Assembly (NCBI RefSeq): GCF_002954615.1
Contig: NZ_MSCJ01000001.1
Location: forward strand, 930,001-994,000
Source: Photobacterium angustum
GTDB lineage: Bacteria > Pseudomonadota > Gammaproteobacteria > Enterobacterales > Vibrionaceae
Direction: 5' to 3'
DNA: 64,000 nt
Below, in pieces: positions 26,037-33,869 of the stretch. The number at the start of each line of letters is the position of its first letter. The stretch's first letter is position 1. The translations under genes and the position numbers were made by a program. The notes beneath the pieces are model-generated. The model saw only the letters and a list, made by a program, of their open reading frames with translations. It was not told the DNA's origin and ran no database searches.

Positions 26037-26097
26037 AACACTTACTTCACCATGCCTTAAATTGGTTGTAGTGTATTAAGACAAAATGTGAAGAAAT

Positions 26098-26111
26098 ATG
26101 ATTTAAATCAA
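26098..26111 (-). promoter_or_regulatory. FNR site of the nir promoter
   Basis: Minus-strand TTGATTTAAATCAT matches 9 of 10 fixed positions of TTGAT-N4-ATCAA. Centre about 68 bp upstream of the nirB ATG, which places a start site about 26 bp before the ATG if FNR sits at -41.5. Confidence 0.75.
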
Positions 26112-26124
26112 GTGGTATTCTAAA

Positions 26125-26140
26125 TACCACTTTAGTGGTA
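26125..26140. promoter_or_regulatory. NarP/NarL-type 7-2-7 inverted repeat
   Basis: TACCACT-TT-AGTGGTA is a perfect inverted pair of heptamers with 2-bp spacing, the arrangement bound by NarP (and NarL); each heptamer matches TACYYMT in 6 of 7 positions. A further AGTGGTA half lies at 26111-26117. Centre 28 bp upstream of the FNR site, as expected for nitrate/nitrite activation of nirB. Confidence 0.65.
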
Positions 26141-26501
26141 CTCAAACAAAATCAATGCATTAGATTTGCAGTTCTATAACACGGCCTCCTCACTTCTTTT
26201 CGTTAGTATGCTGTAAATGATTTTACCTTATTGAATTATAATGATATTTATATTTATTGGGCTTTTTAACTTGTAATGTTAAAGGTTGTTTTAGCTCTAG
26301 TAACAGTCGAATTATGGCTAAATTTTCGCGCGTGGTAATTTGTAAAAGTTTGTATCTTTTTATTTTTCAATGTTGTTTTTTATTAATAGGTTGTGGTATT
26401 TTTGCTCGGTCTTAGATTGAGTAAGATAATAACGTAGTTCACTTAGCAATTACGCAGTAGGTATTTGTGCTTATCAGCATAAATAGAAGGGAAATTATAC
26501 G
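26141..26501. other. AT-rich divergent region between nir and norspermidine operons
   Basis: No gene supported. It should contain the promoter of the leader ORF and norspermidine operon. Nothing I could assign beyond AT-rich sequence. Confidence 0.4.
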
Positions 26502-26618
26502 ATGTTCAGTTTTGTAAGAGCTGACTCATATTTAAGGGACCCAACAGTGGATCTATTATCACTTTCATTTCATTTTGGTTTTCATTTACCGAAATACCGT
26601 ATTATTACGGAGCCTTGA
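26502..26618 (+). CDS. Candidate 38-residue leader peptide of the norspermidine operon
   Basis: ORF with a good ribosome site (AGAAGGGA 8-9 bp before the ATG), starting MFSFVRADSYLRDPT and ending HFGFHLPKYRIITEP, 199 bp upstream of the first biosynthetic gene on the same strand. Aromatic/histidine-rich wording SFHFGFHLP recalls, without being demonstrably homologous to, the SFDFHFF region of the ornithine-sensing SpeFL leader of E. coli. A hairpin CCGTA/TACGG (26597-26610) forms in the last codons, and TTGATC/GATCGA (26615-26630) right at the stop codon. No T-run terminator is seen, so control by Rho access or translation would be more likely than intrinsic attenuation. Function is inferred from position and composition only. 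Confidence 0.5.
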   Translation: MFSFVRADSYLRDPTVDLLSLSFHFGFHLPKYRIITEP

Positions 26619-26817
26619 TCGTTCCTGATCGAAAATCACACTAAACATTGAGTTGCATATTGTTCTAGATACTTATTGTCTCTATACATTTGTACTTTAC
26701 GTGTGATTTTATATTTAAAGATATCTTAACTCGGTATTTATATCGTTATTAATATAGTTTTTACTTATCTTTTGTTACGTTTTTTGTGCAAAAGCTAAGT
26801 GATGACAGGAACGAAAT

Positions 26818-29727
26818 ATGTCTACACTTTTTAATTTTGGCGACACTGATTTATCAACAACAGTGCCTGTTGTTAATGGTTTATATGACTTAACGCTTGA
26901 TGAATTGTTATTAAGCCAAGAGCACTATGAATCGGATGTACGCTCATACCCAAGACGTTTACCTTTAGCAATAGCGAAAGCAGCAGGTGTATTAGTTGAA
27001 GATACTCGTGGGCAATTGTTTATTGATTGCCTAGCTGGGGCTGGAACACTAGCACTTGGCTATAATCACCCAGAAATTAATAAGTCAATTGTTGACCAAT
27101 TAGAATCAGGCTTACCATATCAAACGCTGGATATCACAACGGTTGCTAAAGATAAATTTATTAAGCAATTGTTGAGCTTTTTACCCGAGTCGTTTGCGAA
27201 TAATGCTTGTGTACAGTTTTGTGGCCCTACAGGGGCTGATGCCGTAGAAGCTGCGATTAAACTAGCCAAACAAACAACAGGTAGAAATACCATGGCAGCT
27301 TTTCATGGTGCTTATCATGGAATGACAAATGGCACGATGGCTATGATGGGAAATTTAAACACTAAATCTCGCCGTCAAGGGTTAATGGCTGATGTACATT
27401 TCCTGCCATTCCCATATTCATTACGCTGTCCGTATGGTTTGTCTGGCGATGAAGGCGCAAAACAAAGCTTACGTTATATCGAACATATGCTGAGTGACGA
27501 TGAAAGCGGAATTCAAAAACCTGCAGCCATCATTGTAGAGCCTGTTCAAGGTGAGGGCGGGGTTATTCCCGCACCTGCTTTTTGGCTGCGAGAATTACGT
27601 CGAATAACGCAAGAGCATGGCATTCTACTTATCTTTGATGAGATCCAATGCGGTATTGGTAAAACTGGTCACAATTTTGCGTTTGAAGAATCAGGTATCA
27701 CGCCAGATATTCTTTGTTTATCAAAAGCGGTGGGCGGTGGTTTGCCAATGTCAGTCCTTGTTTTTAATAAAGAGATTGATAGTTGGAACCCTGGAGAGCA
27801 TACCGGCACATTTCGTGGCAACCAGTTAGCGATGGCAACAGGCGCTAAAACGTTAGAAATTATCGAACGAGACGGTTTAGTTGAGCATGCTCACAAAGCC
27901 GGTATGTATCTGCGTCGCGGTTTAGAAAAAGTGGCAGCACAAACAAGCTGTATTGCTGAAGTGCGCGGTAAAGGCTTAATGCTGGGCATCGAAATTGTCC
28001 AACCTGATGGTAGTAAGAATAAGTTTGATGAGCCGATCGCCGATCCTGAGTTAACCGCTGCGATTCAACGCTCTGCATTAGAGCGCGGTTTGATTATTGA
28101 AAAAGGTGGGCGTCAAGGCTCGGTATTACGCTTTTTACCGCCTCTTATCATTAGCTTTGAACAACTTGATTTTGTGATTAATACGGTTAAAGAGGCTATT
28201 GAGGTACATGTTGAACCGATTGAACAAGGATTGGTTTTAGAGTCGGATAATAAAGCGAATTGGAAAGAGTACTTTATTCAAACGGGTAAAGGCGGATCTG
28301 AGAGCTTTGAAACGGCACTGAATCAAACGACTCAAGTGCTAAAAAAGGTCTTTGAACAAACTAATCAGCCTTATTCAGGGATGGATCCTCAATTATTAAA
28401 AACGCTTATAAATGGTATTGATTTAAATCAGCCTCAGTCCTCACTTGATGCCGTGATTGATCAAACAGGCGATCTTATCGCGAAGCACTCAATTATGGTG
28501 CAACATCCGCATTGTATTGCGCATTTACATACTCCGCCACTTGTCCCAGCTATTGCTGCAGAAGCTTTTATTGCCGCATTGAATCAGTCAATGGATTCAT
28601 GGGATCAGGCCAGTGCAGCAACGTTTGTTGAACAGAAAATCGTTGATTGGTTGTGTGATGTTTATCAATTAGGCCAACAAGCAGATGGTGTGTTTACCAG
28701 TGGGGGAACGCAAAGTAATCTGATGGGATTATTGTTAGCACGTGATTGGGCTGCCGACACTATCTCTGGCCATAATATTCAGCAACAAGGTTTGCCATCA
28801 TACGCGGATAAACTACGTATATTATGCTCGAAAAAGTCCCATTTCACCGTCCAAAAATCAGCGTCGTTGATGGGGCTTGGTGAACAATCTGTTGTCTGTG
28901 TTGATACCAATCCTGATGGCACTATTCAATTGGCATCATTGATTACCACTATTGAAGCTTTAAAAGCAGATGATCTTATTCCGTTTGCCGTTATTGGCAC
29001 TGCTGGGACAACAGATCACGGTGCAATTGATGATCTTACCGGATTGGCAGACATTTCCGCTCGTCACAATCTTTGGTTCCATGTTGATGGCGCATACGGT
29101 GGTGCACTTATTTTAAGTCGTCATCAAAGTCGTTTACATGGTATTGAAAAAGCGGATTCTTTAAGCGTCGATTTTCATAAACTTTTCTTTCAGCCGATTA
29201 GCTGTGGTGCAGTATTAGTGAAAGATAAAGCGCACTTTAAATACCTGCTCCATCATGCAGACTATCTTAATCGTGAAGATGATTTACTGCCAAATTTAGT
29301 GGATAAATCAATAGCAACAACTAAGCGTTTTGATGCTTTAAAAGTGTTAATGACAATGCAAAGCGTTGGCGCTGATGCATTAGGTGAAATGTACGACCAT
29401 CTTATTAATCAAACGCAACATGTCGCCGATTTAGTTAATCAACAACCGCAATTTGAGTTATTGGCCGATCCTGCTTTATCGACAGTGTTATTCCGTTTTG
29501 TAGGTGAAGGAGCAAACTTAAATGAGCAACAACTTAACCAACTAAATAAACAATTGCGCATAGATGCCTTAGTGCAAGGGCAAGCCGTACTGGGTGAAAC
29601 CGTTGTTGACGATAAAGTGGCATTAAAGTTCACGATTTTAAACCCGTGTTTAACTATTAACGATTTCAGAACCTTATTGAATAAAGTCTCTCAATTAGGT
29701 CAATCGCTATTGTCTTTAACTCAGTAA
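26818..29727 (+). CDS. Fused L-2,4-diaminobutyrate aminotransferase / decarboxylase
   Basis: 969 residues. N-terminal half (1-460) is a class III PLP aminotransferase making 2,4-diaminobutyrate from aspartate semialdehyde: FHGAYHGMTNG, LLIFDEIQCGIGKTG and PLP lysine in CLSKAVGGGLPMSV. C-terminal half (480-969) is a group II PLP decarboxylase making 1,3-diaminopropane: HVDGAYGGALILS and PLP lysine in SVDFHKLFFQP. Such fusions are known from Vibrio norspermidine clusters (V. cholerae VC1625, similar length). First enzyme gene of the operon; the next gene starts 40 bp on. Cytoplasmic. Both active-site lysines are intact, so both halves should be active. Confidence 0.95.
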   Translation: MSTLFNFGDTDLSTTVPVVNGLYDLTLDELLLSQEHYESDVRSYPRRLPLAIAKAAGVLVEDTRGQLFIDCLAGAGTLALGYNHPEINKSIVDQLESGLPYQTLDITTVAKDKFIKQLLSFLPESFANNACVQFCGPTGADAVEAAIKLAKQTTGRNTMAAFHGAYHGMTNGTMAMMGNLNTKSRRQGLMADVHFLPFPYSLRCPYGLSGDEGAKQSLRYIEHMLSDDESGIQKPAAIIVEPVQGEGGVIPAPAFWLRELRRITQEHGILLIFDEIQCGIGKTGHNFAFEESGITPDILCLSKAVGGGLPMSVLVFNKEIDSWNPGEHTGTFRGNQLAMATGAKTLEIIERDGLVEHAHKAGMYLRRGLEKVAAQTSCIAEVRGKGLMLGIEIVQPDGSKNKFDEPIADPELTAAIQRSALERGLIIEKGGRQGSVLRFLPPLIISFEQLDFVINTVKEAIEVHVEPIEQGLVLESDNKANWKEYFIQTGKGGSESFETALNQTTQVLKKVFEQTNQPYSGMDPQLLKTLINGIDLNQPQSSLDAVIDQTGDLIAKHSIMVQHPHCIAHLHTPPLVPAIAAEAFIAALNQSMDSWDQASAATFVEQKIVDWLCDVYQLGQQADGVFTSGGTQSNLMGLLLARDWAADTISGHNIQQQGLPSYADKLRILCSKKSHFTVQKSASLMGLGEQSVVCVDTNPDGTIQLASLITTIEALKADDLIPFAVIGTAGTTDHGAIDDLTGLADISARHNLWFHVDGAYGGALILSRHQSRLHGIEKADSLSVDFHKLFFQPISCGAVLVKDKAHFKYLLHHADYLNREDDLLPNLVDKSIATTKRFDALKVLMTMQSVGADALGEMYDHLINQTQHVADLVNQQPQFELLADPALSTVLFRFVGEGANLNEQQLNQLNKQLRIDALVQGQAVLGETVVDDKVALKFTILNPCLTINDFRTLLNKVSQLGQSLLSLTQ

Positions 29728-29767
29728 GACAACCACACAGATAAATGAATTTAGAAGGAAATAAATA

Positions 29768-31012
29768 ATGGCTATTTTACAAATTGGTGCTGGTGGTGTT
29801 GGCTGGGTTGTCGCACATAAAGCGGCGCAAAATAATGACGTACTTGGCGATATTACATTAGCTTCTCGTACAATTGGCAAATGTGAAAAGATCATTAGCT
29901 CGATTGATAAGAAAAATAATTTAAAAGACCCGACAAAAACAATTCAAGCACGTGCTGTCAATGCAGACGATGTTGATGCATTAGTTGCTTTAATTGAAGA
30001 CGTGAAACCTGATTTGGTTATTAATGCAGGGCCTCCGTGGGTTAATATGTCGATAATGGAAGCGTGCTATCAAGCGAAAGTTTCATATCTCGATACCTCT
30101 GTTGCTGTTGATTTATGCTCTGAAGGTCAACAAGTGCCTCAAGCTTATGATTGGCAATGGGGTTACCGTGAGAAATTTAAGCAAGCAGGTATTACAGGTA
30201 TTTTAGGCGCGGGTTTTGATCCTGGTGTAGTGAGTGTTTTTGCAGCGTATGCAGTAAAGCATTTGTTTGATGAAATCGACTCCATTGATGTAATGGATGT
30301 CAATGCAGGCGATCACGGTAAGAAGTTTGCGACTAACTTTGATCCAGAAACCAATATGTTAGAAATCCAAGGCGATTCTTTCTATTGGGAAAATGGTGAG
30401 TGGAAACAAGTGGGCTGCCATAGCCGTATGCTTGAATTTGATTTCCCGCTGGTGGGAAAACATAAAGTTTATTCTATGGCGCATGATGAAGTGCGTTCAA
30501 TGCAGGAATTTATTCCGGCAAAGCGTATTGAATTTTGGATGGGCTTTGGTGATAAATACCTAAATTATTTCAATTGTATGCGTGATATTGGCTTATTAAG
30601 TCCAGATCCACTAACGCTGCATGATGGCACTGTTGTACAACCTCTTCATGTTTTAAAAGCGTTATTGCCTGATCCGACATCATTAGCGCCGGGTTACACA
30701 GGAAAAACCTGTATAGGCACATGGGTCCAAGGCAAGAAAGAAGGCAAAGAACGCAGTGTGTTTATCTATAACAATGCTGATCATGAAGTGGCGTATGAAG
30801 ATGTAGAGCATCAAGCAATTTCATACACAACAGGTGTTCCTGCTATTACTGCCGCATTACAGTTCTTTAATGGTAAATGGGCGGATAAAGGTGTGTTCAA
30901 TATGGAGCAGCTAGATCCAGACCCATTCTTAGCGACAATGCCAACTATTGGTTTAGATTGGCATGTACAAGAATTGCCCGTCGGTCAGCCTGATATTCAA
31001 ATTTTAAAATAA
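29768..31012 (+). CDS. Carboxynorspermidine synthase (dehydrogenase)
   Basis: 414 residues, saccharopine dehydrogenase-like: N-terminal Rossmann motif ILQIGAGGVGWVVAHKAA (3-20), then NAGPPWVNMSIMEACYQ, GAGFDPGVVSVFAAYA and GYTGKTCIGTWVQG. Condenses 1,3-diaminopropane with aspartate semialdehyde and reduces the product with NADPH to carboxynorspermidine. Placed between the diaminobutyrate fusion (40-bp gap) and nspC (79-bp gap with a hairpin), the order known from Vibrio. GAAGGAAAT ribosome site before the ATG. Confidence 0.94.
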   Translation: MAILQIGAGGVGWVVAHKAAQNNDVLGDITLASRTIGKCEKIISSIDKKNNLKDPTKTIQARAVNADDVDALVALIEDVKPDLVINAGPPWVNMSIMEACYQAKVSYLDTSVAVDLCSEGQQVPQAYDWQWGYREKFKQAGITGILGAGFDPGVVSVFAAYAVKHLFDEIDSIDVMDVNAGDHGKKFATNFDPETNMLEIQGDSFYWENGEWKQVGCHSRMLEFDFPLVGKHKVYSMAHDEVRSMQEFIPAKRIEFWMGFGDKYLNYFNCMRDIGLLSPDPLTLHDGTVVQPLHVLKALLPDPTSLAPGYTGKTCIGTWVQGKKEGKERSVFIYNNADHEVAYEDVEHQAISYTTGVPAITAALQFFNGKWADKGVFNMEQLDPDPFLATMPTIGLDWHVQELPVGQPDIQILK

Positions 31013-31025
31013 GATAATCCTATTG

Positions 31026-31065
31026 AAGCGAGCTTGTATGATGATCCAAGCTCGCTTTCTTATTT
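31026..31065 (+). terminator. Intercistronic hairpin between the carboxynorspermidine genes
   Basis: AAGCGAGCTTG (31026-31036) pairs perfectly with CAAGCTCGCTT (31047-31057), followed by TCTTATTTCT. It is a terminator-like element inside the operon, probably a partial terminator or an RNA-stabilising end that lowers nspC relative to upstream genes. Confidence 0.7.
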
Positions 31066-31091
31066 CTACATAAAAAGAAGAGAAAACCATC

Positions 31092-32210
31092 TTGAAAACG
31101 CCTTACTTCATGATTGATGAGCAGAAGCTGATCGATAATTTAGAGCAAGCCAAAAAGTTAAAACAATTGTCTGGTGTAAAACTGGTACTCGCGTTGAAGT
31201 GTTTTTCAACATGGGGTGTGTTTGATGTCATGAAGCCTTATCTTGACGGTACAACCAGTAGCGGACCATTTGAAGTCAGGTTAGGTGCTGAAAAATTTGG
31301 TGGTGAAACTCATGCTTATAGCGTTGGATATAGCCAAGAAGATGTAGAAGAGGTACTAGAGCACTGTAATAAAATTATTTTTAACTCCGTTTCTCAATTG
31401 CAAGCCCATCGCCATTTGGCTGACGGCAAGGCGTCAGTTGGCCTACGTTTAAATCCGGGGATAAGTTGTGCAGGGCAAGATTTAGCTGATCCTGCTCGTC
31501 AGTATTCGCGTTTAGGAGTTCAAGAAAACCTATTAACAGATGGATTGTTTGATGATCTTGATGGCGCGATGTTTCATATGAACTGTGAAAATAAAAGTGC
31601 GGATGCGTTTATTGCGTTATTAGATTCTATATCAGAACGTTTTGGGCGTTATTTGGAAAAGCTTGATTGGGTGAGTTTAGGTGGCGGTGTTTTCTTCACT
31701 TGGCCTGATTACGAGTTAGAAAAGTTATCTATTGCATTAAAAGCATTTGCTTCACGATTTAATGTCCAATTATATCTAGAACCAGGCGAAGCCATTATTA
31801 CTCAAACGGCAGATTTAGTCGTGACGGTGGTTGATATTGTTGAAAATGAAATGAAAACGGCAATTGTAGATAGTGCGACAGAAGCGCATCGACTCGATAC
31901 ATTAATTTATAATGAGCCCGCCACAATTAGTGAAGCTTCTGAAAAGGGGAGTTATCAATACGTGATTGGTAGTTGTTCTTGTTTAGCGGGCGACCAATTC
32001 TGCGTAGCTAACTTTGAACAGCCATTAGTTATTGGACAGAAATTACACATAGCAGATAGTGCGGGATATACCATGGTGAAGCTTAATTGGTTTAATGGCT
32101 TAAGAATGCCTAGTATTTATTGCCGTAGAATCGATGGTGGCGTGGAAAAATTAAACGAATTCACTTATCAAGACTTTGAGTCTTCATTGTCGCGTTTTTC
32201 AATTTCGTAA
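31092..32210 (+). CDS. nspC: Carboxynorspermidine decarboxylase
   Basis: 372 residues, fold type III (alanine racemase-like) PLP decarboxylase. PLP lysine in [15 protein letters not shown] (about residue 36), [37 protein letters not shown], and the C-terminal active-site cysteine motif GSCSCLAGD. Converts carboxynorspermidine to norspermidine, the triamine used for biofilm control in Vibrio. TTG start with GAAGAG upstream gives [12 protein letters not shown], the usual N-terminus. Last gene of the operon. Confidence 0.96.
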
Positions 32211-32349: not shown

Positions 32350-32425
32350 ACACCACGTACCGCAGCGGGGTGACTCGCAAAGGACAAAAGATTCTGAAAA
32401 AGTTAACTTCTTCAGAAACAACGTT

Positions 32426-32499
32426 GGCGCGTTGGCAGAGTGGCTATGCAGCGGATTGCAAATCCGTGGACCTCGGTTCGACTCCGGGACGCGCCTCCA
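32426..32499 (+). tRNA. tRNA-Cys(GCA), copy 1
   Basis: 74 nt with encoded CCA. Acceptor GGCGCGT/ACGCGCC, anticodon GCA in the loop of CGGAT/ATCCG. First gene of the array. Confidence 0.97.
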
Positions 32500-32518
32500 T
32501 TATCTTATGAGAATCTAT

Positions 32519-32594
32519 GCGACACTAGCTCAGCTGGTAGAGCGCAACCTTGCCAAGGTTGAGGTCACGAGTTCGAACCTCGTGTGTCGCTCCA
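32519..32594 (+). tRNA. tRNA-Gly(GCC), copy 1
   Basis: 76 nt with CCA. Acceptor GCGACAC/GTGTCGC, anticodon GCC in AACCT/AGGTT. T-stem ACGAG/CTCGT, as in copy 4 but unlike copies 2 and 3. Confidence 0.97.
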
Positions 32595-32657
32595 AATTAA
32601 AGATTATGGCGAAAGCGGTAATCACAGATGGTGTCTAACCATCGCAAGAAATTGCGT
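32595..32657 (+). other. Folded Gly-Leu spacer, conserved in all four repeats
   Basis: The 63-nt spacer between tRNA-Gly and tRNA-Leu(UAA) is the same in all four units (also 32933-32995, 33272-33334, 33612-33674). It holds two hairpins: GATGG/CCATC around TGTCTAA, and CGCAA-GAAA-TTGCG, a 5-bp stem capped by a GNRA tetraloop directly before the Leu gene. It also holds an 11-codon ORF (MAKAVITDGV plus stop) with no ribosome site. Possibly a processing signal, or a small-RNA sponge like the leuZ spacer of E. coli. Confidence 0.6.
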
Positions 32658-32744
32658 GCCCCGGTGGTGGAATTGGTAGACACAAGGGATTTAAAATCCC
32701 TCGGCGTTCGCGCTGTGCCGGTTCAAGTCCGGCCCGGGGCACCA
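32658..32744 (+). tRNA. tRNA-Leu(UAA), copy 1
   Basis: 87 nt with CCA, long variable arm (CGGCGTTCGCGCTG). Acceptor GCCCCGG/CCGGGGC fully paired; anticodon TAA in GGGAT/ATCCC. Confidence 0.97.
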
Positions 32745-32763
32745 TCTAATTGAGAAGTAAAAT

Positions 32764-32837
32764 GGCGCGTTGGCAGAGTGGCTATGCAGCGGATTGCAAA
32801 TCCGTGGACCTCGGTTCGACTCCGGGACGCGCCTCCA
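32764..32837 (+). tRNA. tRNA-Cys(GCA), copy 2
   Basis: 74 nt, identical to copy 1. Confidence 0.97.
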
Positions 32838-32856
32838 TTCTCTTATGAGAATCTAT

Positions 32857-32932
32857 GCGACACTAGCTCAGCTGGTAGAGCGCAACCTTGCCAAGGTTGA
32901 GGTCATCGGTTCGAACCCGATGTGTCGCTCCA
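32857..32932 (+). tRNA. tRNA-Gly(GCC), copy 2
   Basis: 76 nt with CCA. T-stem ATCGG/CCGAT: three compensatory base-pair changes against copy 1, pairing kept. Confidence 0.97.
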
Positions 32933-32995
32933 AATTAAAGATTATGGCGAAAGCGGTAATCACAGATGGTGTCTAACCATCGCAAGAAATTGCGT

Positions 32996-33082
32996 GCCCT
33001 GGTGGTGGAATTGGTAGACACAAGGGATTTAAAATCCCTCGGCGTTCGCGCTGTGCCGGTTCAAGTCCGGCCCGGGGCACCA
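32996..33082 (+). tRNA. tRNA-Leu(UAA), copy 2
   Basis: 87 nt with CCA. Acceptor starts GCCCTGG, so one C-G pair of copy 1 becomes a T-G wobble; otherwise as copy 1. Confidence 0.96.
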
Positions 33083-33102
33083 TCTAATTGAGAAGTAAAA
33101 AT

Positions 33103-33176
33103 GGCGCGTTGGCAGAGTGGCTATGCAGCGGATTGCAAATCCGTGGACCTCGGTTCGACTCCGGGACGCGCCTCCA
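33103..33176 (+). tRNA. tRNA-Cys(GCA), copy 3
   Basis: 74 nt, identical to copy 1. Confidence 0.97.
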
Positions 33177-33195
33177 TTCTCTTGTGAGAATATAT

Positions 33196-33271
33196 GCGAC
33201 ACTAGCTCAGCTGGTAGAGCGCAACCTTGCCAAGGTTGAGGTCATCGGTTCGAACCCGATGTGTCGCTCCA
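33196..33271 (+). tRNA. tRNA-Gly(GCC), copy 3
   Basis: 76 nt with CCA. T-stem ATCGG/CCGAT as in copy 2. Confidence 0.97.
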
Positions 33272-33334
33272 AATTAAAGATTATGGCGAAAGCGGTAATC
33301 ACAGATGGTGTCTAACCATCGCAAGAAATTGCGT

Positions 33335-33421
33335 GCCCTGGTGGTGGAATTGGTAGACACAAGGGATTTAAAATCCCTCGGCGTTCGCGCTGTGCCGGTT
33401 CAAGTCCGGCCCGGGGCACCA
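33335..33421 (+). tRNA. tRNA-Leu(UAA), copy 3
   Basis: 87 nt with CCA, acceptor with the GCCCTGG wobble variant as in copy 2. Confidence 0.96.
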
Positions 33422-33442
33422 TCTAATTTGAGAAGTAAAAAT

Positions 33443-33516
33443 GGCGCGTTGGCAGAGTGGCTATGCAGCGGATTGCAAATCCGTGGACCTCGGTTCAACT
33501 CCGGGACGCGCCTCCA
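33443..33516 (+). tRNA. tRNA-Cys(GCA), copy 4
   Basis: 74 nt. One change from the other copies, TTCAACT for TTCGACT in the T-loop (purine kept), so it should still fold. Confidence 0.96.
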
Positions 33517-33535
33517 TTCTCTTATGAGAATCTAT

Positions 33536-33611
33536 GCGACACTAGCTCAGCTGGTAGAGCGCAACCTTGCCAAGGTTGAGGTCACGAGTTCGAACCTCGT
33601 GTGTCGCTCCA
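33536..33611 (+). tRNA. tRNA-Gly(GCC), copy 4
   Basis: 76 nt with CCA. T-stem ACGAG/CTCGT as in copy 1. Confidence 0.97.
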
Positions 33612-33674
33612 AATTAAAGATTATGGCGAAAGCGGTAATCACAGATGGTGTCTAACCATCGCAAGAAATTGCGT

Positions 33675-33761
33675 GCCCTGGTGGTGGAATTGGTAGACAC
33701 AAGGGATTTAAAATCCCTCGGCGTTCGCGCTGTGCCGGTTCAAGTCCGGCCCGGGGCACCA
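33675..33761 (+). tRNA. tRNA-Leu(UAA), copy 4
   Basis: 87 nt with CCA, GCCCTGG wobble variant as in copies 2 and 3. Confidence 0.96.
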
Positions 33762-33780
33762 TCTAATTGAGAAGTAAAAT

Positions 33781-33854
33781 GGCGCGTTGGCAGAGTGGCT
33801 ATGCAGCGGATTGCAAATCCGTGGACCTCGGTTCGACTCCGGGACGCGCCTCCA
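33781..33854 (+). tRNA. tRNA-Cys(GCA), copy 5
   Basis: 74 nt, identical to copy 1. It begins a truncated fifth unit that lacks Gly and Leu(UAA). Confidence 0.97.
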
Positions 33855-33869
33855 TTCTCTAAAATATAA

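Follow-up and report, generated by a model that had tools for sequence, protein, structure and literature searches.

The stretch of DNA analysed here (hereafter the window, 64,000 nucleotides at full length) raises the question of how a norspermidine operon is controlled from the sequence in front of it. Norspermidine has been described as a biofilm and lysis signal in Vibrio cholerae (PMC8079147, PMC10914755), and our literature search returned no account of how its synthesis is regulated. An earlier note on this DNA had placed a possible polyamine-sensing arrest peptide, in part resembling SpeFL, ahead of the operon. Its assignment of the genes behind the leader to norspermidine synthesis (26818-32210) is borne out by profile matches:

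26818 to 29727, forward strand: L-2,4-diaminobutyrate aminotransferase/decarboxylase fusion gene, 969 aa (TIGR00709, NF052646)
29768 to 31012, forward strand: carboxynorspermidine synthase/dehydrogenase gene (NF043000, 860 bits, cut-off 800)
31092 to 32210, forward strand: nspC, carboxynorspermidine decarboxylase (TIGR01047, 491 bits, cut-off 409)

In the fusion protein, TIGR00709 covers residues 31-462 with 531.8 bits, above its cut-off, and NF052646 covers residues 488-962 with 420.5 bits, not reaching its whole-protein cut-off of 900. The closest named loci among the matches listed are those of P. angustum and two Photobacterium species, with 98% identity of the fusion protein.

Directly 5' of the leader lies a known RNA motif, RF02951, that had been overlooked:

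26404 to 26546, forward strand: structured RNA DABA-DC-AT (Rfam RF02951, cmscan), its last base abutting the leader start codon

The motif reportedly originates from Weinberg and colleagues (2017). In a permissive Rfam search of 26050-26830, the match in the window spans the full model (positions 1-149 of 149) with 54.6 bits (E 9.2e-12), which is 1.5 bits short of the gathering score of 56.1, so that it is missed at the gathering threshold. By covariance-model match over the full model, 26404-26546 is a member of this family, relatives of which score up to 159 bits, and the gene context is identical, the RNA being located upstream of DABA-DC/AT genes, here the fusion gene (26818-29727). Under strict filters the RNA was found in 288 of 329 genomes of the family, with one match each; the operon has a similar spread, its carboxynorspermidine synthase being detected (E 1e-100) in 292 of the 329. 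Beyond the family, none of 368 other genomes in an even class sample rendered a match under the strict filters, the window's genome being the only one (1 of 369). Within the window's genus, 39 of 52 genomes carry the RNA, 26 of the 39 above the cut-off; the Rfam gathering score of 56.1 passes over the other 13. The family model could be widened to take in the window and the 12 other members of the genus below that score.

The Rfam model is limited to the RNA and stops just before the NTG, whereas here a conserved leader ORF has its ribosome site in the 3' end of the RNA, and the gene under control is located 115-360 nt past the leader stop. The elements in question are the following:

26502 to 26618, forward strand: 38-codon ORF of the earlier note, its ATG inside the RNA motif, the same N-terminus being found only in the window's nearest relatives
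26534 to 26539, forward strand: Shine-Dalgarno AAGGGA of the leader, followed by the conserved spacer CCCAACA (25-mer table)
26547 to 26618, forward strand: conserved leader ORF, GTG start, 23 codons, MDLLSLSFHFGFHLPKYRIITEP, stop UGA at 26616-26618, homologues in 133 of 134 loci

The 38-codon ORF (26502-26618) is indeed present, and its stop precedes the fusion gene by 199 nt, but its start codon is not that of the conserved leader, and both the ATG at 26502 and its ribosome site fall within the RF02951 RNA (26404-26546). We take the conserved leader to be 26547-26618, because 42 of 133 loci have no upstream in-frame start and all 133 have the NTG. In the window itself the longer form might conceivably be used. 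An upstream in-frame ATG occurs in 83 of the 133 loci, and in 70 of these 83 it precedes the NTG by exactly 15 nt, ATGGGAAACCCAACATTG being one example; judging by the sequence, initiation five codons earlier could conceivably occur in those 70.

The arrangement of RNA, NTG and a short ORF ending in [I/L/V]-Thr-Glu-Pro-UGA was found in 133 of 134 Vibrionaceae loci (115 distinct RNA-plus-leader segments), the sole locus without it, L025, having just 28 nt of upstream sequence. The set comprises the window, 73 loci from a protein search (the best 80 of a longer list, minus seven distant ones, L073-L079) and 60 RNA places (L081-L140, the 30 best-scoring each from the family and the genus searches), some strains of which duplicate the first set; L143, L145 and L146 were left out of the upstream comparison, their contigs ending near the operon. 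Our earlier counts of leaders favoured candidates ending in TEP; in a recount that ignored the peptide, the RNA anchor led to exactly one NTG candidate per locus, and 133 of 133 ended in TEP. Start codons were TTG in 74 loci, GTG in 53 and ATG in 6, and the stop was UGA in all 133. Around the Shine-Dalgarno, G at -11 was present in 51 of 53 distinct 25-mers and C at -6 and -5 in all 53, conservation that is partly by construction, as the search pattern demanded GTAGG, TAG[AG]NGGG, C[CT]CAAC and NTG. Among eight further places, mostly with low RNA scores, six had the leader and two a decayed one, and six further genomes of the genus that were fetched all had it. A search of the window's own genome rendered no second leader, the two other ATHACNGARCCNTGA sites both lying in unrelated frames.

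Some genomes depart from this pattern. G001 (locus L159) and G016 (L161), a small genome, have both kept the RNA. The leader of G001 lacks the TEP end and is not followed by any ORF as long as the fusion gene; that of G016 has neither the NTG start nor the TEP-UGA end, and its fusion gene is cut short by an early stop. These sequence relics suggest that the leader is kept only together with the operon. In G007 the leader is intact, and no match to carboxynorspermidine synthase was obtained at E 1e-100, part of the stretch reading N; G036 carries the fusion gene with neither RNA nor leader. In G046 (L157) and G037 (L158), aminotransferase and decarboxylase are encoded by separate ORFs, with neither an RNA match nor a leader, and therefore the leader goes with the fused gene; the aminotransferase match of G037 ends at profile position 349 of 469.

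The comparison of upstream regions proposed in the earlier note was carried out, and it confirmed peptide-level conservation in front of the operon in Vibrio, Photobacterium and relatives. The 133 loci contain 111 distinct leader sequences encoding 89 distinct peptides of 21-52 codons, with the consensus M[NK]...ISFVLPxC...ITEP; Vibrio-type leaders have about five extra residues before ITEP, and the window's clade bears SFHFGFHLPKYRIITEP in place of the consensus. The longest, of 52 codons, belong to the V. litoralis/rumoiensis/hibernica group (L014, L015, L017 and L066) and carry a long insertion that separates the ISF part from the terminal TEP. TEP is preceded by I in 130 loci, by L in two and by V in one. 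For the last 14 codons in frame, pN/pS between nearest neighbours (paired with no tree) was 0.27 (5 pairs, 21-aa class), 0.24 (16 pairs, 23-aa class) and 0.15 (25 pairs, 28-aa class), versus 1.01-2.29 when either of the two other frames was read; constraint on the N-terminal parts is weak (0.55-0.71). By this measure the last 14 leader codons evolve as protein. The Thr codon of TEP is ACT in 67 of the 111 distinct leaders, ACC in 20, ACG in 16 and ACA in 8, and the T and E codons vary synonymously, never in amino acid, as nearly so does I. Pro ahead of the stop is encoded by CCT in 109 of 111 distinct leaders, and the stop itself is UGA in all 111; CCT is also kept in Photobacterium-type leaders, whose pairing with the ribosome site lies mostly past the stop. 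No protein family of NCBIfam matches the leader peptide, and the only Pfam match, of the 38-aa form to DUF4321, is sub-threshold (E 0.2) and assigns it to no known family. The anatomy of the leader, as read from its sequence, fits a nascent-peptide attenuator.

How such a peptide could act on the operon is suggested by a co-varying pairing between the leader stop and the ribosome site of the gene, which had likewise escaped notice:

26619 to 26630, forward strand: anti-RBS directly past the leader stop, TCGTTCCTGATC (predicted pairing, complementarity over 58 loci)
26804 to 26817, forward strand: RBS of the fusion gene, GACAGGAACGAAAT, sequestered by the anti-RBS (predicted fold)

In the window, 26619-26630 is predicted to pair with 26804-26814 with a probability of 0.77-0.99, the RBS being closed. 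The fold of 26547-26835 has a z of -5.43 against 200 shuffles, and when the stretch is shortened to begin 30 nt ahead of the leader end, z is -3.57 in the window, with a mean of -2.36 over 58 loci, 32 of which are below -2. These 58 were obtained from the 73 loci with a chosen gene start by removing L018, L021 and L069 (no ATG start chosen) and thinning similar ones; gene starts were picked by a simple rule and may be wrong at some loci. Across them, complementarity to the gene RBS is strongest at -10 to +19 relative to the stop (mean z -1.24, sem 0.21, n=58), overlapping neighbours of this peak giving -0.42, -0.69 and -0.80. Nine segments of the +10 to +119 range all stay between -0.11 and +0.15, and of four segments from -70 to -11, three lie between -0.18 and -0.03, the fourth (-70 to -41, the 5' part of the leader) reaching -0.55 (sem 0.13).

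Cognate pairs of stop region and RBS are more stable than swapped ones (-11.0 vs -9.2 kcal/mol; P 5e-5, the observed value not being reached in any of 20,000 permutations), both for short leaders (n=20, P 0.02) and for long ones (n=38, P 5e-5). The 20 bases after the stop alone also distinguish cognate from swapped pairs (P 0.0145 for short leaders and 0.0001 for long ones), and a control segment rendered P values of 0.75 and 0.78. In 26 of 45 long-leader loci the gene ribosome site contains TCAAGG, the complement of CCTTGA at the Pro-stop; in the window's clade the bases past the stop pair with CAGGAACG. The co-variation is one of position and sequence, not one frozen duplex. In minimum free energy folds, at least 6 RBS bases are paired to the stop region in 35 of the 58 loci and fewer than 4 in 20, and single-locus z values are below -1 in 39 of 73 loci and above 0 in some. 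Masking the stop region raises the mean predicted openness of the RBS from 0.401 to 0.471, versus 0.411 with control masks (Wilcoxon P 5e-4), and shuffling it gives 0.442, a slight gain seen in 34 of 58 loci (P 0.02), so that the predicted opening is modest in size. Prediction and co-variation agree in that the leader/stop region pairs with the downstream RBS, as in sequestration of the SecM and ToiL type.

Two hairpins had previously been proposed at the end of the leader. The one over its last codons, CCGTATTATTACGG at 26597-26610, is present in the window and is not a conserved element, its five pairs holding in 109, 73, 105, 75 and 67 of the 111 distinct leaders; the second, after the stop, coincides with the segment that, in the predicted fold, is the partner of the ribosome site of the fusion gene. 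A search for intrinsic terminators in the window found none between leader and fusion gene, the sole match being located within the fusion gene. As to the structured RNA, its segment at -60 to -31 is weakly complementary to the leader RBS (z -0.4 to -0.5), and no signal appeared when complementarity of RNA segments to the gene RBS or to the stop region was looked for.

We favour, as the moderately probable reading of these data, a two-part 5' leader (the RNA, then an arrest peptide with an anti-RBS) that would control translation of the norspermidine operon, arrest being the ON state. The DABA-DC-AT RNA, folded up to the leader start codon, would set how frequently the leader is initiated; a gating role at this point is proposed because the RNA extends as far as the start codon, with a segment that is weakly complementary to the leader's ribosome site and no complementarity detected to the gene RBS or the stop region. 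The peptide ending in [I/L/V]-Thr-Glu-Pro would then pause or arrest its ribosome at the UGA, with Pro in the P site, since Pro-UGA is the arrest site of TnaC and release is slow after a C-terminal Glu-Pro. The bases at and just past the stop would act as the anti-RBS, shutting the fusion gene's ribosome site 115-360 nt further on, and it is supported by co-variation and by predicted folding that this site is kept closed. From the geometry, a ribosome on the UGA would cover the anti-RBS and open the fusion gene, so that ribosome pausing at the leader stop probably switches the norspermidine genes on. Such an effect of the footprint is proposed because the stalled ribosome frees the secA ribosome site in SecM (PMC7897499) and ToiL is modelled to free topAI (PMC12121999). 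As for the signal, our guess would be the end product of the pathway or another polyamine, ample norspermidine silencing the leader either by way of the RNA or by speeding up release. Against the two-part model stand the uneven strength of the pairing and the modest predicted opening, the additional complementarity of the leader's 5' part to the RBS, the fusion gene of G036 with neither RNA nor leader, and the fact that the known systems TnaC, SpeFL and MdtU answer to an inducer and not to what the operon finally makes. More tentatively, DABA-DC-AT may be a metabolite-sensing RNA whose output is the arrest peptide, the ribosome at Glu-Pro-UGA opening the ribosome site of the operon; a ligand would then gate leader initiation, possibly with a second, peptide-based sensing step.

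It can also be the case that the RNA, as a riboswitch, is the only sensor and that the leader is a passive relay, its ordinary translation disrupting the anti-RBS pairing without any arrest. The RNA ends exactly at the leader start and its spread is near that of the operon (288 vs 292 of 329 genomes); besides, the RBS helix of the window reaches the first leader codons and, over the 58 loci, the leader's 5' part shows weak complementarity to the RBS, so that passing ribosomes would disturb the pairing too. A passive relay, however, needs no conserved C-terminal peptide, no TEP-UGA in 133 of 133 loci and no pN/pS of 0.15-0.27, and we regard it as unlikely.

A transcriptional alternative, of the kind known from TnaC and SpeFL, is that the parked ribosome masks a rut site past the stop and thereby controls Rho. 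The Pro-UGA ending is that of TnaC, and base composition past the stop points the same way: the 20 nt directly after it have C at 0.24 and G at 0.11 (58 loci), and over 90 nt the values are C 0.217 and G 0.183, with C exceeding G in 38 of the 58 loci. Past 20 nt, however, the excess is weak, and at 60-79 and 100-119 G outnumbers C; where the excess is strong it overlaps the anti-RBS, and in the window itself the values over 90 nt are just C 0.18 and G 0.14. Since Rho control also leaves the RBS co-variation unexplained, we hold it to be quite unlikely as the whole explanation; the excess of C over G after the stop does make a Rho component of the two-part model possible, and Rho control and RBS sequestration may act together. 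Action of the peptide in trans as a small protein, for instance on the enzymes, would agree with its conservation in 133 loci, but is very improbable, as conservation is concentrated at the extreme C-terminus up to the stop, while the N-terminus and the length (21-52 aa) vary, and the RBS with which the stop region co-varies lies in cis. Codon-based attenuation upon starvation for Ile or Thr, both also made from aspartate semialdehyde, is barely credible: Ile and Thr codons do lie close to the stop, but there is no run of regulatory codons, Glu and Pro are equally invariant, and no intrinsic terminator was found between leader and gene in the window.

Returning to the two-part reading, comparison with known systems places it among several precedents. 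Kinship with SpeFL, drawn on in the earlier proposal, is not supported. The stretch SFHFGFHLP is present in the window; it is a variant of ISFVLPxC confined to peptides like the window's own, and SFxFxF occurs in 3 of 89 distinct peptides, all of them variants of the window's own, the comparison having used the letters SFDFHFF of the earlier note in place of a SpeFL sequence. SpeFL is also a leader peptide before a polyamine operon, with its arrest beside the stop codon (PMC8429421, PMC7815308), and it is described as acting on RF1, release by which is inhibited (PMC8429421). This RF1 feature is absent here because the leader stop is UGA in 133 of 133 loci, read by RF2 only, and both the gene (speF, responding to ornithine) and the C-terminus are different.

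TnaC, the 24-aa leader peptide of E. coli tnaCAB, has Pro-UGA (RF2) as its arrest site (PMC8429421), and a short leader with a C-terminal Pro before UGA is what we found in all 133 loci. Trp12 and Asp16 (WFNID), reported as strictly conserved in TnaC (PMC8429421), have no counterpart, Trp being found in one of the 89 distinct peptides, a 52-aa one; also unlike TnaC, the stop region here pairs with the downstream RBS and a structured RNA precedes the leader. By analogy, the nearest polyamine precedent is MdtU of E. coli, which responds to spermidine ahead of mdtJI: its conserved C-terminus overlaps a segment whose predicted partner is the mdtJI ribosome site, and induction by spermidine requires that MdtU be translated, with Rho involved (PMC7815308). 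Both are uORFs with a conserved C-terminus and pairing to the RBS of the next gene in a polyamine context, whereas mdtJI encodes an exporter and not a synthesis pathway, and the part of PMC7815308 available describes no structured RNA family ahead of MdtU. SecM and ToiL share with the present proposal a stalled ribosome that frees a sequestered downstream ribosome site, but in SecM the arrest occurs within elongation and export is monitored (PMC7897499), and ToiL belongs to an antibiotic response (PMC12121999). Arrest peptides that monitor export (SecM, MifM, VemP) have an N-terminal export or membrane signal; the present leaders are no longer than 21-52 aa.

RF02951 and leader-peptide attenuators that free a ribosome site are thus already known, and the serial arrangement of RNA and then peptide is the unusual part. 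A literature search with most subscription journals outside its scope found neither a leader peptide for the norspermidine operon nor an output for DABA-DC-AT. This orphan RNA now gains a concrete output, its 3' end being the ribosome site of a conserved leader peptide, and therefore a search for its ligand should read leader initiation and not the distant gene. If the two-part model is true, the operon has a serial RNA-plus-arrest-peptide switch; on the more tentative reading of DABA-DC-AT as a metabolite-sensing RNA, this would be a riboswitch feeding nascent-chain arrest, widespread in Vibrionaceae, and norspermidine synthesis would have a translation-level sensor.

Shortly past nspC, the window contains a tandem array (32425-33860) of 4.2 copies of a 338-bp unit with 98% matches, each unit carrying tRNA-Cys, tRNA-Gly and tRNA-Leu; 14 tRNA genes lie within 1.5 kb at this array.
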